Shown here one piece after another: positions 13,338-31,508 of a stretch of 31,601 nt of DNA (its first letter is position 1; each line of letters starts with the position of its first letter). A program made the translations under genes and the position numbers. The notes beneath the pieces were generated by a model. It made no database searches. It was given only the letters and a program-made list of their open reading frames with translations, and was not told the origin of the DNA. The DNA is taken from positions 1-31,601 of IMG/VR virus record IMGVR_UViG_3300008416_000002; one strand, given 5' to 3'. This DNA is from a virus.

Positions 13338-13922
13338 ATGCAGCTCACCAGGAGAGCAGTCATTCAGGGATTCGTATCCGCTGTCGCAACGGTAGCGGTC
13401 GGAATGCGTGTCGCCAACAAGATGCCCAATGTCGATTTGAAAGATGCGATCGACACTTTCCGCTGGGAATTTGCAACCGATAATTATTTCTATGGCCTCG
13501 ATCTGGCCAGGCCCTGGGATGTCACAGTCATGCGTCGAATTGCCGGCGATGACTGGGAAGATGTTGCTGTGAAAGATTTGATGCAGATCTGTGCTGACTC
13601 GATCGTATCAGTTAAGAAAGAAATTGCAGTTCGAGATCCTGATAACGATTTCATGCTCGATCATAACTCTATTAAACATCCAAAATGGCAGATGCCACAC
13701 ATCACTTATCAAGAAATTGAGGAACAGGGTGTTGCTCCAGAAGGTGAAGAAGAATTTGAAGCGGCTGCGGTTATTGCAATGAGCCAGGGCATGGCTGCAT
13801 TACAGGTAGATGGTCATGGCGCACACGCATGGCCAGAGGATCATTACGATCAGACCAGCATTGACGTTGTTCGTGTTCCAGAAATCTCTACGACAGAGGA
13901 AGAATTATTTAAGCATGGTTGA
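13338..13922 (+). CDS. Protein with a twin-arginine-like leader (194 aa)
   Basis: The N-terminus MQLTRRAVIQGFVSAVATVA has a paired Arg followed by a moderately hydrophobic stretch, close to a Tat leader (S/T-R-R-x-F-L-K) but with Ala-Val at the usual Phe-Leu positions. The mature part is acidic and unrecognised: FRWEFATDNYFYGLDLARPW, a DWEDVAVKDLMQICADSI helix, and a His-rich region (GHGAHAWPEDHYDQTS) that could bind metal. It is one of three genes in this operon with such leaders. Confidence 0.6.
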   Translation: MQLTRRAVIQGFVSAVATVAVGMRVANKMPNVDLKDAIDTFRWEFATDNYFYGLDLARPWDVTVMRRIAGDDWEDVAVKDLMQICADSIVSVKKEIAVRDPDNDFMLDHNSIKHPKWQMPHITYQEIEEQGVAPEGEEEFEAAAVIAMSQGMAALQVDGHGAHAWPEDHYDQTSIDVVRVPEISTTEEELFKHG

Positions 13923-14636: not shown

Positions 14637-14746
14637 AGCGCATCAAGGAGTGGTGGAGTCGTTTGACAGCGCAGCCACCTGACGACAGACAGAATCCGAA
14701 ACCGGCAACGAACTTGACCGTGACGGTCACCAGGAGCGAAGCATGA
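14627..14746 (+). CDS. Short ORF ending in the first strand of an FN3 domain (39 aa)
   Basis: A GTG at 14627 overlaps the stop of the FN3 gene. The ORF begins with an amphipathic helix (LKRIKEWWSRLTAQ) and ends NPKPATNLTVTVTRSEA, which is the typical opening strand of an FN3 domain. The rest of that domain continues in the next ORF, which begins at an ATGA overlap. Either reinitiation makes two products or a -1 shift near 14743 would fuse them; no classic slippery heptamer is seen. Confidence 0.45.
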   Translation: MCLKRIKEWWSRLTAQPPDDRQNPKPATNLTVTVTRSEA

Positions 14747-15054
14747 CGATGAATGCAACGGTGGGATGGACACTTCCCACAGAACGTGAGAGCGATAATC
14801 CTTTGCCAGAGACTGCGATCAAGGAAAGTATCATCTCGATCAAAGTTGATGGCGCTCCCAGTTTCACAGAGTTGGATCGAGTACCGTCACCAGGTACGTC
14901 GCATCTGATTCCGGATCTAGCTGATGGAACCTGGGTGTGGCAAGTGGAAATTGTTGATAACGCAGGGAGGATATCCGCACCAGCGGAGCAGACTTTTCTC
15001 ATAGATGATTCGCCACCGAAACCAGCTACAGGACTTACGGTTGATCTTTCATGA
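14743..15054 (+). CDS. FN3-like domain protein (103 aa)
   Basis: The product holds strands B to G of an FN3-like fold: NATVGWTLPTERESDNPLPE, IISIKVDGAP, LIPDLADGTWVWQVEIVDNA. It ends SPPKPATGLTVDLS, again the opening strand of an FN3 domain, just before a stop. The missing first strand is supplied by the preceding ORF. No signal peptide is present if translated alone. The arrangement suggests a degraded or programmed multi-FN3 protein. Confidence 0.6.
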   Translation: MTMNATVGWTLPTERESDNPLPETAIKESIISIKVDGAPSFTELDRVPSPGTSHLIPDLADGTWVWQVEIVDNAGRISAPAEQTFLIDDSPPKPATGLTVDLS

Positions 15055-15314
15055 TCATCGTGTACATCCTGGCTGCTGTGCTGTTCATTTTATTGATCGG
15101 CATTCCCTGGTTGAACGGTGTCCTGGATTTCATCATGGCCTATCGTTTTGCGAAGAACCATCACACCGATAAGACAGCAGCACTGCTGAACTGGAACGCA
15201 TTCAAGTGGTCCTGGTTGCATCAGCTCGATGCGATGGTGGAAGCGATGCCGTTCCTGCGGAAAGACCTGACCGAGACGTTCGGCATCAGGCCGGATGATG
15301 GAAGAACGACATGA
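15051..15314 (+). CDS. Single-span membrane protein (87 aa)
   Basis: Begins MIIVYILAAVLFILLIGIPW, an N-terminal transmembrane segment, followed by a hydrophilic, partly helical domain with aromatic residues (NWNAFKWSWLHQL) and an acidic/basic tail. The ATG overlaps the previous stop (ATGA) and its stop overlaps the next ATG. Lysis-associated function (holin or inner-membrane spanin) is possible but unsupported. Confidence 0.62.
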   Translation: MIIVYILAAVLFILLIGIPWLNGVLDFIMAYRFAKNHHTDKTAALLNWNAFKWSWLHQLDAMVEAMPFLRKDLTETFGIRPDDGRTT

Positions 15315-15658
15315 ATAAAAATCCTTTATGGATTATTGCTGTTGCGATAGCTGCACTGGCTGTCATATTGGTCAACCTTCCTGACGATCATTGGAGCCTG
15401 GTGTACGAAGCGATACAAGTGCCGGAGCTGGTGTGCGATGACGATGGTAATTGTGTTCCAGGAGATCAGAAGCGATTCGTGTTGTTCAATGAAGATGGGC
15501 TCACGCAACCTGAGTGCAAAGATCTATTCGACGAACATCTGCGACGACTGAACAACAATGGTGCGGTGATCGAGTACGAGATTCAGTGCGAGCATTTAAT
15601 GACGAAGGGTCACGGCTATCTGTTCCAGTATCAGAACCAGTGGCTGCTGCCACCATGA
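15311..15658 (+). CDS. Membrane-anchored or secreted Cys-containing protein (115 aa)
   Basis: The N-terminus NPLWIIAVAIAALAVILVNL is one hydrophobic span with few positive charges after it, so the C-terminal part should face the periplasm. It contains four Cys (VCDDDGNCVPG, ECKDLF, QCEHL) compatible with two disulfides. No lipobox. Coupled by ATGA overlaps to both neighbours, the second of which is the Tat-leader capsid-like protein. Confidence 0.62.
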   Translation: MNKNPLWIIAVAIAALAVILVNLPDDHWSLVYEAIQVPELVCDDDGNCVPGDQKRFVLFNEDGLTQPECKDLFDEHLRRLNNNGAVIEYEIQCEHLMTKGHGYLFQYQNQWLLPP

Positions 15659-15975
15659 ATAGACGAGATTTCATAGTCAGCGCGATCGGTGCTACGGTCA
15701 TGGCAGCGGTGCCTGCGACGAAAAAAACAACACTGCTTCACGATGCAGCACATCACGATCTCAACGGTGGATTCGGTCTTGCTCCACTCAAGCCTGAAGG
15801 TGGAACTGTCCTGTATGATCAGGGAGAGAGAATGGCCAGAGCTTTGGCCAGGTCCATGATGCAAACAAAAGAAGCGGTAGCTTCCAGGGTGCTAGGGGAG
15901 GCATTCGATGTCGATCACGAAGAAGACGGATACACATACCGGACATACAAAACAGGAAAACGCATCATCGGATGA
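15655..15975 (+). CDS. Tat-leader protein with internally deleted major-capsid-like sequence
   Basis: The 106-aa product opens MNRRDFIVSAIGATVMAAVP, a textbook twin-arginine leader. The rest matches the major capsid protein at 30597: residues 40-57 (APLKPEGGTVLYDQG core) align to capsid 53-70 (APVKPEGEGVAYDQG core) with 12 of 18 identical, and residues 61-85 (ARALARSMMQTKE core) align to capsid 107-131 (ARALARSLQHTKE core) with 12 of 25 identical. The 36 capsid residues between these blocks are reduced to 3. ATG 15655 overlaps the previous stop (ATGA). It could be a decoy, an assembly regulator, or a capsid relic with an acquired leader. Confidence 0.7.
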   Translation: MNRRDFIVSAIGATVMAAVPATKKTTLLHDAAHHDLNGGFGLAPLKPEGGTVLYDQGERMARALARSMMQTKEAVASRVLGEAFDVDHEEDGYTYRTYKTGKRIIG

Positions 15976-16207
15976 TGGCCAGATGCGCTTCGAGGATGAT
16001 GGAGTATATCCAGCATCAAGGCTGAGAGAGTGCAGTATTTGTCAAGGTCCATTCGATCTCGACACGGAGGGAGGGAGCGAAGGCAATATAGGAATCTTGC
16101 CGGTAGCTTTTTGCCCCACCTGCAAGGTAGGGATTCTGGAGTACGCTGAATTTCAGCAACCAGGATTCGACTGTCCGCACTGTGGAGAATACATCGGAGA
16201 TGAGTAG
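15908..16207 (+). CDS. Small zinc-ribbon protein
   Basis: Three CxxC pairs are visible in the 99-aa product: CSIC, CPTCK and CPHCGEY, enough for one zinc ribbon plus a third pair. ATG 15908 is preceded by a very strong GGGGAGG, although it lies 68 nt inside the previous gene; ATG 15983 would give a shorter form keeping all Cys pairs. The N-terminal part (KKTDTHTGHTKQENASSDDG) looks disordered. Likely a protein- or nucleic-acid-binding adaptor. Confidence 0.62.
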   Translation: MSITKKTDTHTGHTKQENASSDDGQMRFEDDGVYPASRLRECSICQGPFDLDTEGGSEGNIGILPVAFCPTCKVGILEYAEFQQPGFDCPHCGEYIGDE

Positions 16208-16478
16208 ACCGACTGAAGGCAAGGTGATTGAGCCAAGTACCTCCGGCGACATTGGCGAAGTGATGCTGGAGCAAGCCGTTGCAGCACTCCTGGCAGAAGA
16301 CGTAATCCCCAGAGTTCTCCAGGTTAGCCTGGAAGATAAATTCGATGAGCTGAGTGACCTGGCTCGTAAGCATGGAATTACCTGGATGATCCGAGGTGAC
16401 TTCTCGGATGGCGAGTGGTGTCTTCACAATCTCAAGGAAGGAGATGAGAAGGTCAGCTACTGGAATAAACCATGGTGA
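16200..16478 (+). CDS. Unknown acidic protein (92 aa)
   Basis: ATG 16200 overlaps the previous stop; a GTG at 16182 in frame is an alternative. The protein is helical in the middle (VMLEQAVAALLAEDVIPRVL, DKFDELSDLARKHGI) and ends with a Trp-containing beta segment (TWMIRGDFSDGEWCLHNL). No family is recognised and no membrane segment is present. Confidence 0.6.
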   Translation: MSRPTEGKVIEPSTSGDIGEVMLEQAVAALLAEDVIPRVLQVSLEDKFDELSDLARKHGITWMIRGDFSDGEWCLHNLKEGDEKVSYWNKPW

Positions 16479-17279: not shown

Positions 17280-17482
17280 TGAGTGACATGACCCTGGAGC
17301 AGGCAGAGGAAATCCTGCGGAAGATGGGTATGAACGATCATCGCAATCCAACGAGTGAGCAACGCACAGCGAAGAACCTATACTTCGATAAGGTGATCGT
17401 GCCGAAGTATGGCTCGCTCGATGACGTACCTGATCACCTGGAGCCTGATTACATGGAAGGCTGGACAACGGTGTACCCATGA
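17279..17482 (+). CDS. Unknown small acidic protein (67 aa)
   Basis: ATG 17279 overlaps the previous TGA; the listed longer frame begins inside that gene. The product is MSDMTLEQAEEILRKMGMND, then TSEQRTAKNLYFDKVIVPKY and an acidic aromatic tail (DYMEGWTTVYP). It is probably a two-helix protein. The stop overlaps the next ATG (ATGA). Unrecognised. Confidence 0.62.
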   Translation: MSDMTLEQAEEILRKMGMNDHRNPTSEQRTAKNLYFDKVIVPKYGSLDDVPDHLEPDYMEGWTTVYP

Positions 17483-17820
17483 AACGAAGAAAGTTTATTA
17501 AAGCGATGGCTGCTGGTGCAGCCGTACCTGTTGCAGCACTGGGAGATGACCAGGAGGTTCCTTACGCAGTAGATCCTGGGCATCCGGAAGTCATGCCGGT
17601 GATTCAGTACATCGGTAACCTGGGTGAGCCGATCAAGGCCATGACCGTGTTCCGAGATTCAGTCATTATCGTGACGGAGTACGGCAAGGTGTATCGGATG
17701 ACATACGATCTGGATATCCACAACATTGGATTCACATTTGAACATCGCATTCATGAGAGCGACTTGGCAGATGGGCCGCCAACAGAATGGCCCAAGTTTT
17801 ATGACGACCGGAGATTCTGA
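17479..17820 (+). CDS. Protein with a canonical twin-arginine leader (113 aa)
   Basis: MKRRKFIKAMAAGAAVPVAA is a near-perfect Tat leader (K-R-R-x-F-I-K), with likely cleavage around AALG-DDQ. The mature part is about 90 aa and beta-rich: EVMPVIQYIGNLGEPIKAMT, RDSVIIVTEYGKVYRMTYDL, GFTFEHRIHESD. The repeated strand pattern could be one small beta-propeller-like or beta-sandwich module. No cofactor motif is evident. Tat export normally means folding in the cytoplasm before transport, which is unusual for a phage protein. Confidence 0.7.
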   Translation: MKRRKFIKAMAAGAAVPVAALGDDQEVPYAVDPGHPEVMPVIQYIGNLGEPIKAMTVFRDSVIIVTEYGKVYRMTYDLDIHNIGFTFEHRIHESDLADGPPTEWPKFYDDRRF

Positions 17821-21948: not shown

Positions 21949-22083
21949 ATGTTCATTGTTTGGATTCTTATCGGTATTCTGATTGGCCTGATCCTGGCCT
22001 GTAAATTCCCGCGCATCTGTACAGTCGTTTCGACAGCCTGGAACTGGCTCAAGGGAAAGTTTGGCAGCAAGGCTGGTGAGTAA
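21949..22083 (+). CDS. Tiny membrane protein (44 aa)
   Basis: AAGGAG precedes ATG 21949. The product starts MFIVWILIGILIGLILACKF, a single hydrophobic span, then PRICTVVSTAWNWLKGKFGS and a short tail. The second part is amphipathic with Lys, like peripheral lysis peptides. Its stop overlaps the GTG of the PagL-like gene, suggesting coordinated envelope-directed action. Confidence 0.6.
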   Translation: MFIVWILIGILIGLILACKFPRICTVVSTAWNWLKGKFGSKAGE

Positions 22084-22621
22084 AAGATGGCGCGGCATCA
22101 AGTACAAGAAGCCGGTGACATACATACTCATCGCCTTTGCCGTGACTCTGATCTGGGCTGCCTGTCATGAGACTGCGAGTGGTGCAGAGACAATCCTGAG
22201 AGTAGCGCCAGAGACGATGTTCGTCGGTGGCGATAAATACAACGGCTCTGCGGTGTCGGTCGTGGAACGATTCGCCGGCAAGTACGATGTCGGACTTGGG
22301 CTCTACACTGAGTTGCAGTGCCGTGATCCTATGGACTGTCCCAGAGGTGTGGGCTCGACCAACATCGGTCTCCAGGCGAAGCGAGTGTTCCAGGTCAACT
22401 GGTTCGAGATTGGTTTCGGTGCTGCTTACTGGAAGAACCAGGGACCAGCCTGGGATAGCAATCTGACGTTCGCCTTACACGTAGGCATTCACACTCCGGA
22501 TACCTGGTGGACCTGGTTGCCGGATCAGGTGCTGTGGGAGCATGCCAGCACTGGAGGCAGTTCAGACAAGAACGGTGGGCTTGATTACATTTCGATTGGT
22601 TGGGTGCTTACCAGGAAATAA
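22076..22621 (+). CDS. PagL-like outer-membrane beta-barrel, putative lipid A 3-O-deacylase
   Basis: PagL removes the 3-O acyl chain of lipid A in the outer leaflet. The 181-aa product has a basic N-terminus, a hydrophobic signal (VTYILIAFAVTLIWAAC) and about 145 mature residues alternating as beta-barrel strands, the size of PagL. The last strands carry His156-Ala-Ser158, Asn166 and Asp170 within WEHASTGGSSDKNGGLDY. In Pseudomonas PagL the catalytic residues are His126, Ser128 and Glu140, with Asn136 between; spacing here is identical, with Asp for Glu. GTG 22076 overlaps the previous stop; a TTG at 22061 is an alternative. A lipobox-like AAC at 28-30 is possible. Enzyme activity is inferred. 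Confidence 0.62.
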   Translation: MSKRWRGIKYKKPVTYILIAFAVTLIWAACHETASGAETILRVAPETMFVGGDKYNGSAVSVVERFAGKYDVGLGLYTELQCRDPMDCPRGVGSTNIGLQAKRVFQVNWFEIGFGAAYWKNQGPAWDSNLTFALHVGIHTPDTWWTWLPDQVLWEHASTGGSSDKNGGLDYISIGWVLTRK

Positions 22622-30596: not shown

Positions 30597-31508
30597 ATGG
30601 CTATGAATCGAAGCGACTTTCGCAAACAACTACAGGAAGGGTTGAACGCTGTCTTCGGTATGGAGTACAAGCGATATCCAGAGGAGTGGCGCGACATCTT
30701 CGACATCGAGCGATCGATGAAAGCATTCGAGGAAGACGTACTGCTCGCAGGATTCGCTGGTGCGCCAGTGAAACCCGAAGGCGAAGGCGTGGCATACGAC
30801 CAGGGGGCAGAGAGTTACGTCGCCAGGTATACGCATGAGACGATTGCGTTGGCATTTGCAATCACCGAGGAAGCTGAAGAAGATGGCTTGTACGGAAGTC
30901 TTGGCAACAAGTATGCAAGGGCCCTTGCCCGTTCTCTCCAGCACACCAAGGAAGTCAAAGGTGCTGACATCATCAATAACGGTTTCGACGCAGGTTTCCT
31001 TGGCGGCGACGGAGTACCGTTATTCTCGCTCTTGCATCCGCAGTTCGGTGGTGGAGTCCAGGCTAACACCCTGGCGACTGCTGCTGACCTGGCAGAGGCA
31101 TCTATTGAGCAGGCAGCGATCGACATCTCAGAGTTCGACGACGATCGTGGCATCCCGATTGCAGCGCAGATCACGAAACTGATTATTCCTACGGAACTTC
31201 AGTTCGTGGCTACACGCATTCTGATGTCACCTTATCGCACGAACACTGGCGATAACGACATCTCTGCTATCTACACTCTGGGCACAGTCGGTGATGGATT
31301 CTGCGTGAACCATCGTCTTACCGATCCAGATCAGTGGACACTCAAGACTGATGCTCCGGATGGCCTGAAGCACTTTGTTCGCAAGAAAATCAGTCGTGGT
31401 ATCGAAGGTGACTTCGAGACTGGCAACCTGCGTTACAAAGCTCGCGAGCGGTACAGCTACGGCTGGTCCGACTGGCGAGGTGCTTACGGCTCTCCAGGTG
31501 GAGCGTAA
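30597..31508 (+). CDS. Major capsid protein (HK97-fold)
   Basis: The 303-aa protein forms the icosahedral shell. The N-terminal arm (FRKQLQEGLNAVFGMEYKRY) and the E-loop-like block (APVKPEGEGVAYDQGAE, VARYTHETIALAFAITEEAE) lead to the spine-helix region (KYARALARSLQHTKEVKGAD), then GFDAGFLGGDGVPLFSLLHP and the P-domain end (LKHFVRKKISRGIEGDFETG). It is the typical podovirus/siphovirus gpT-like pattern. The gene follows the cement gene and is followed by a terminator. Residues 53-131 have a deleted paralogue at 15655. No N-terminal protease site is obvious, so the scaffold is probably separate. Confidence 0.92.
   Translation: MAMNRSDFRKQLQEGLNAVFGMEYKRYPEEWRDIFDIERSMKAFEEDVLLAGFAGAPVKPEGEGVAYDQGAESYVARYTHETIALAFAITEEAEEDGLYGSLGNKYARALARSLQHTKEVKGADIINNGFDAGFLGGDGVPLFSLLHPQFGGGVQANTLATAADLAEASIEQAAIDISEFDDDRGIPIAAQITKLIIPTELQFVATRILMSPYRTNTGDNDISAIYTLGTVGDGFCVNHRLTDPDQWTLKTDAPDGLKHFVRKKISRGIEGDFETGNLRYKARERYSYGWSDWRGAYGSPGGA

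Follow-up and report, generated by a model that had tools for sequence, protein, structure and literature searches.

The window, by which we mean the whole stretch of viral DNA analyzed here (31,601 nt; IMG/VR record IMGVR_UViG_3300008416_000002), carries a small gene, P0001, whose 106-residue product (MNRRDFIVSAIGATVMAAVPATKK...GKRIIG) is one of a set of fast-evolving, selected small proteins with a cargo of short segments of the HK97-fold major capsid protein (MCP). The gene, its parts, its neighbors and the MCP gene of the same window are as follows.

13338–13922, plus strand: P0003, a second protein with a twin-arginine (RR) leader, conserved in the cluster.
15311–15658, plus strand: upstream gene with an N-terminal hydrophobic segment; its stop overlaps the P0001 ATG (ccaccATGA), and a homolog lies upstream in L003/L004.
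15655–15975, plus strand: P0001, RR-leader capsid-mosaic protein, defined by its ORF, BLASTP, segment HMMs and hhalign.
15655–15714, plus strand: P0001 residues 1–20, MNRRDFIVSAIGATVMAAVP, twin-arginine leader (TAT_signal; RR invariant in the alignment).
15730–15771, plus strand: P0001 residues 26–39, TLLHDAAHHDLNGG, a mobile module that in P0001 apparently replaces the MCP HP loop.
15769–15825, plus strand: E-loop strand 1 (E1) block, P0001 residues 39–57, equivalent to capsid 52–70 (26 bits).
15826–15909, plus strand: spine-helix block, P0001 residues 58–85, equivalent to capsid about 104–131 (37 bits, hhalign).
15925–15954, plus strand: P0001 residues 91–100, DGYTYRTYKT, after the helix; probably like E-loop strand 2 (E2), judging from L138 and L141.
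15908–16207, plus strand: zinc-ribbon-like protein, downstream and overlapping P0001, a conserved neighbor.
16182–16478, plus strand: conserved neighbor of mosaic genes, with a weak ADLSE segment in its homologs (12 bits).
17479–17820, plus strand: P0004, a third RR-leader protein.
30597–31508, plus strand: P0002, the MCP, of HK97 fold (PHROG 371, structure model), the source family of the pieces.

The window MCP matches PHROG 371, ‘major head protein’ (E 1.8e-15), and its structure model matches the HK97-fold capsids of T5 (the best match, E 2.8e-4), GTA and HK97, encapsulins, and entry 7rwz; a search of the PDB by sequence with the same protein gave no match. In two related records, tandem paralogs adjoin the MCP (G003 14662–15426 and 15446–16144; G006 38327–39019 and 39045–39809; tblastn E 1e-10 to 1e-12).

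A preliminary description of P0001 had pointed to two blocks collinear with this capsid protein, and both hold up: residues 40–57 against capsid 53–70 (12 of 18 identical) and residues 61–85 against capsid 107–131 (12 of 25), with the 36 capsid residues between them reduced to 3. P0001 matches the window MCP by BLASTP (E 1e-8), and profile-profile comparison, on which the description had staked its claim of capsid ancestry, gives a strong match, with hhalign aligning 15 leader proteins to 15 MCPs at 98.8% probability (E 1e-16). The DNA of the E1 block is 67% identical to that of the phage’s own MCP gene (E 0.012), and the P0001 helix is closer to the MCPs of other lineages than to its own. When P0001 is searched against all six frames of its own record, it finds only its own gene and two places in the MCP; by tblastn against 50,697 cultured or deposited phages its weak matches are mostly to MCPs, in the E-loop and helix region. 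The E2-like block of P0001 is not significant alone, the E2 segment scoring 9 bits in L138 and 24 bits in L141. The structure model of P0001 is poor (pLDDT 57, pTM 0.24), with a helix at residues 52–83, the expected place of the capsid spine helix. A match to AAA_25 (E 1.5e-4, below the cut-off) was dismissed as spurious, being seen in only 1 of 15 members. The capsid and the leader start alike, with MNRSDF and MNRRDF, probably by coincidence.

The twin-arginine leader of P0001 is present as first described; its match to TAT_signal is weak (E 0.01) and does not reach the curated cut-off (16.2 bits against 22.7). Across the aligned leader proteins, RR is invariant in 15 of 15, in the forms NRRDFI, KRRTFIK and DRRKFLK, and is followed by F or L and a hydrophobic core, as in a Tat-type motif. 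Pfam TAT_signal is matched by 13 of the 15 (best E 1e-4) and TIGR01409 by 7, mostly weakly. From these leaders, the RR-bearing mosaics are predicted to be substrates for export by the Tat pathway. Export would not be universal, because a few fragment ORFs are leaderless or carry a membrane segment at the C-terminus. P0003 and P0004 were considered as capsid mosaics and rejected, as neither contains a significant MCP segment; no relatives of P0004 occur in the records compared.

Related phage contigs were gathered by IMG/VR scans, and their six frames were read against an MCP panel with shuffled controls. Nine segment HMMs cover the N-arm (MCP residues 1–40), E1 (46–72), E2 (72–100), helix (100–132), HP (132–156), ADLSE (156–182), midA (183–222), midB (222–262) and C-terminus (268–303). 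The search for leader-bearing homologs proposed in the preliminary description proved productive: about 30 small ORFs in the window and related IMG/VR phages string together MCP segments, most of them behind an RR leader, and many related phages carry several such ORFs. Among about 7,900 six-frame ORFs, the top scores outside MCPs are 25 bits for the N-arm, 29 for E1, 24 for E2, 55 for the helix, 16 for HP, 33 for ADLSE and 37 for the C-terminus, and the A-domain core (midA and midB, 183–262) gives only background in non-MCP ORFs (8.0 and 7.3 bits). No shuffled or reversed ORF exceeds 11 bits, and in two control phages nothing but their own MCPs exceeds 8; these shuffled, reversed and control-phage scans rule out chance similarity. 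Pfam Phage_capsid_4 is matched by two mosaics alone (best E 7.8e-4).

The sampling is also specific to the capsid protein. Profiles of 30-residue MCP windows give 79 matches of at least 10 bits outside the family, in 31 ORFs, 57 of them at or above 15 bits, against 5 and 0 in the reversed control. The corresponding figures are 4 and 0 for the portal protein and 4 and 2 for the DnaB helicase (the 2 in a 42-residue ORF); terminase profiles give 24 and 14, which among the matches listed are other terminases, and with scaffold and cement profiles nothing appears beyond distant family members and matches close to background. This lack of a comparable spread for portal, terminase, helicase, scaffold and cement profiles led us to reject composition or general mosaicism as the cause. 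In an unfiltered tblastn of ORFs of at least 150 residues against their own records, the matches listed also include low-complexity, tail-fiber and tandem-paralog matches, which were set aside. The nearest relatives in culture are the Roseobacter phages CRP-901 and CRP-902, whose capsids are related. The cultured relatives CRP-901 (MCP 56% identical) and DSL-LC04 contain neither MCP fragments nor RR ORFs, so phages with capsids of this family do not carry MCP fragments as a rule. No cultured host for the mosaics was found: three of them searched against the 50,697 phages returned other phages’ MCPs, unconvincing matches or nothing. A query from L204, a clade-2 relative, returned MCPs of related phages down to E 1e-8, the others among the matches listed having E of at least 3. 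No cellular relatives were confirmed among 84,980 genomes (profile A2).

The mosaics are 70–130 residues long. In the MCP, the segments run N-arm, E1, E2, helix, HP, ADLSE, A-domain core and C-terminus; most mosaics are permuted, because their segment order differs from this one. The H-type genes (in L139, L140, G006 and G008) encode a KRRGFL leader, a DDGVALxSxKHP loop, LLHDAAHHDLxGG, E1, DLSEASLEQ and an N-arm, and one permuted arrangement in the relatives runs HP loop, E1, ADLSE, N-arm. Elsewhere, the order is E2, ADLSE, helix and HP (L145 and L204), HP, E2 and helix (L146 and L191), or E1 followed by the N-arm (L013/G005 and L138), and in L141:880–1131 and L143:7268–7567 E2 and the helix are contiguous as in the MCP. 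The window gene shares with L001, L003 and L274 an E1 followed by the helix, and the proteins of the window, L001 and L274 have C-termini that are E2-like. At the position of TTLLHDAAHHDLNGG in P0001, its L274 ortholog carries DRGVALYSAVHPHL, a canonical HP loop of the MCP. Because L274 has an HP loop in that place, and DGYTYRTYK corresponds to E2 after the helix, P0001 is itself probably permuted, in the order HP, E1, helix, E2.

The C-terminal MCP motif occurs in RR proteins (L001, L013), in proteins that look tail-anchored (L140, L261) and in leaderless ORFs. In L140:4917–5189 and L261:9723–10118, the motif, RYRAHERYGFGWTDPRG, is joined to a C-terminal membrane segment, giving a topology opposite to that of the RR proteins. 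A 79-codon frame, L013:4765–5004 (G005 44353–44592), fuses an MCP N-arm, in DNA nearly identical to that of its own MCP, to a motif like the MCP C-terminus and to a membrane segment at the end of the protein, and the leaderless L145:98–508 contains ESTEKYVPGWDDPK, from a clade-2 MCP C-terminus, with a possible N-arm piece, NVADFRKEL. An ADLSE-like stretch, SDIAEVSIEEAC, in window 16182–16478, G001 35390–35683 and L274:4539–4937 may be a capsid piece or a chance likeness.

Several phages divide the segments among two or three such genes. Four of them (L139, L140, G008 and L261) carry three genes in the order H, C and helix, where H contains HP, E1, ADLSE and mostly also the N-arm, C the C-terminus, and the helix gene E2 and the helix; no segment is repeated between the three. 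Repeats between genes are likewise absent from L138, L141, G001 and L145, and one is present in G005.

These architectures bear on two proposals of the preliminary description. It had read P0001 as an internally deleted copy of the phage’s own capsid protein, which does not stand, as the relatives carry other MCP segments in permuted order, P0001 itself is probably permuted, and its helix is closer to the MCPs of other lineages. It had also suggested that the capsid protein and the leader protein might belong to a wider leader-bearing family, and this was near the mark; the version in which MCPs and leader proteins share, or have converged on, the helix motif, with no derivation from an MCP, is very improbable. 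The ALARSMMQTKE form of the motif, common to nearly all mosaics and unlike the MCPs’ own variants, speaks for it. Against it are the six or seven different MCP segments found in the mosaics, some contiguous as in the MCP (L141, L143), the hhalign match, and one piece whose DNA is nearly identical to that of the phage’s own MCP gene.

That piece is the N-arm of the G005 mosaic, which agrees with its own MCP over 12 residues. It is identical to the own MCP gene at 33 of 36 nt, against 28–29 of 36 for sister MCPs, and in 9 of 12 codons, a level that about 0.8% of random synonymous encodings match; at least this piece was apparently copied from the own MCP gene. Most other pieces are older, and the helix segments are most like the MCPs of other lineages, a comparison biased upward because it takes the best of many lineages. 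No RVT_1 match was found in 11 records (possibly incomplete), the control genomes being positive, and retro-copying by a diversity-generating retroelement (DGR) was rejected, as the 11 records contain no reverse transcriptase.

Between mosaic genes, DNA identity runs by module. In L267, a leader (86–92% nt identity) and a tail (90–97%) of helix-type genes surround an E1 module that is 78–79% like that of H-type genes. The window gene resembles L138 in its LLHDAAHH-E1 module (75.5%) and leader (77%) and L143 in its helix (79%), and the module at P0001 residues 26–39 recurs in other mosaic genes at 72–79%. At the level of sequence, these identities establish that modules move between mosaic genes by recombination. 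That modules are common to sibling genes at the DNA level indicates that P0001 arose by shuffling between genes and not by a single deletion.

The products of this shuffling are under selection. In 16 of 16 pairs of mosaic genes, the Nei–Gojobori dN/dS is 0.15–0.49, against 0.01–0.05 for the MCP, and the mosaics are therefore real, selected and fast-evolving proteins. A degenerate relic would lack purifying selection, and the suggestion that P0001 is one is countered by the values among window-type genes (0.15–0.36). Neutral insertion of MCP DNA was rejected on the same purifying selection and because the significant fragments, among the matches listed, lie in sense and in phase. Phages with MCPs 96–97% identical have mosaics that show about 66% identity or differ in construction, as in the window and G003 (MCPs 97%, mosaics 66%), and such divergent mosaics beside near-identical MCPs suggest an arms race.

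Shuffling at the DNA level is what would be seen if a recombination-prone region built small envelope proteins from whatever came to hand, capsid sequence being no more than building material and the leader doing the work, for example by occupying Tat; the recurrence of leaders on cargoes without capsid sequence (P0003, P0004) fits this as well. We consider it unlikely, as among the proteins tested only the MCP is sampled, in certain segments only and, among the matches listed, in sense and in frame, and as the cargo is under purifying selection.

A function of the cargo may instead lie in what the segments contact. In phage GP4, the N-arm, E-loop and P-domain form inter-capsomer and quasi-three-fold contacts (PMC9698820), and the segments used in mosaics are mostly those that form these contacts. 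Capsid elements are also recognized by host defenses. For CapRel, the predicted contacts on the MCP include the spine helix and the sheet of the P-domain (PMC9712102), and the TIR sensors of Thoeris bind to a major head protein (PMC11312562). The Tat pathway, in turn, can carry leaderless partners by hitchhiker export (PMC4273604).

Our preferred reading, offered tentatively, as a possibility that we hold with some doubt, is that the mosaics are capsid mimics that bait a host capsid sensor, which is then evicted through Tat. The mimics would be made in the cytoplasm, presenting conserved capsid elements, and would bind a host protein that recognizes capsids; the leader would then take the mimic and its bound partner to the membrane or out of the cytoplasm, by the hitchhiker principle, and the phage would be shielded from capsid-sensing defense while MCP accumulates. 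A permuted mimic that lacks the A-domain core cannot build shells, which favors binding over assembly as its role. A Tat leader is easiest to understand on a mimic whose task is to remove a partner from the cytoplasm. A fuller version, in which phages keep recombining capsid modules behind Tat leaders so that their gene sets together represent all of the conserved capsid surface but the A-domain core and bait sensors, is somewhat less probable still. It counts against baiting that certain capsid sensors require MCP that is folded or hexameric, an epitope that short, permuted segments may not present. Among the PADLOC families, none matched convincingly.

The same segments would suit a second role, in which membrane-bound MCP elements tether the phage’s own procapsid for assembly, maturation or release. 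The N-arm, E-loop, P-domain helix and C-terminus correspond to the inter-capsomer, quasi-three-fold interface of GP4 (PMC9698820) and the A-domain core is never used, and the C-terminal hydrophobic segment in L140:4917–5189, L013:4765–5004 and L261:9723–10118 would leave the fragment cytoplasmic. We nonetheless judge tethering rather unlikely: an RR leader separates its cargo from capsids by placing it on the outer side, the segments are permuted, and the helix segments fit other lineages’ MCPs better than their own. This last feature, with its best-of-many bias, would suit mimics that act as MCP-derived interface peptides and poison capsid assembly in related phages or satellites that infect the same cell, as would the rapid turnover of mosaics; the phage’s own MCP could have diverged to immunity. 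Interference of this kind leaves the RR leader unexplained and sits poorly with the G005 N-arm piece, which equals its own MCP, and we regard it as improbable.

The mosaics differ from each of the known systems they resemble. With HK97-fold MCPs (PHROG 371, Mu-like gpT/Phage_capsid_4) they share homologous N-arm, E-loop, spine helix, HP, ADLSE and C-terminal segments; however, they lack the A-domain core, are permuted and carry an RR leader, and are no shell subunit as such. With Tat substrates they share an RRxF[IL] leader and hydrophobic core, but they are virus-encoded, their cargo is capsid sequence and not a cofactor enzyme, and their export is predicted. CapRel-SJ46 (PMC9712102) and staphylococcal Thoeris (PMC11312562) have MCP elements as their immune targets, for CapRel the P-domain and spine helix; these are host sensors. 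The open-access literature searched, on Tat leaders in phages and on capsid fragments or decoys, contains no precedent: it describes no phage capsid-fragment decoy, and it reports no phage that exports capsid pieces or shuffles capsid segments between small genes. The preliminary description had likewise known of no capsid-derived fragment routed to the membrane or periplasm.

To our knowledge, no exported phage proteins built from capsid pieces are known. Among the nearest known systems is also Ccm of SaPIbov5 (7rwz, the entry matched by the window MCP model), a capsid size-redirecting, MCP-like protein that alters capsid assembly. Ccm is a whole capsid-like fold, unlike the mosaics, with no leader, no permutation and no gene set.

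If the mosaics are baits, capsid-sensing immunity would exert enough selection to produce a dedicated decoy system, the choice of segments would indicate which parts of the capsid bacteria watch, and the mosaics would be an anti-defense of a new kind, built from the virus’s own trigger. If their role is to dock capsids or to block assembly, the mosaics would represent naturally occurring peptides of the capsid interface. On either view, bait or docking and interference, the sequence pattern is a strong one.

Two minor observations concern the same phages. The helix-type genes of L031, L140, L142, L143, L261 and L267 encode proteins that vary except for a near-constant C-terminal tail, EGARRSVGxxGSPDR (L142 and L267 share 97% nt identity there), which possibly reflects an overlapping element. 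The product of window 22061–22621 has a membrane segment at its N-terminus; on visual inspection, the protein looks similar to outer membrane barrels of the lipid A deacylase type (HAST...N.G.D).
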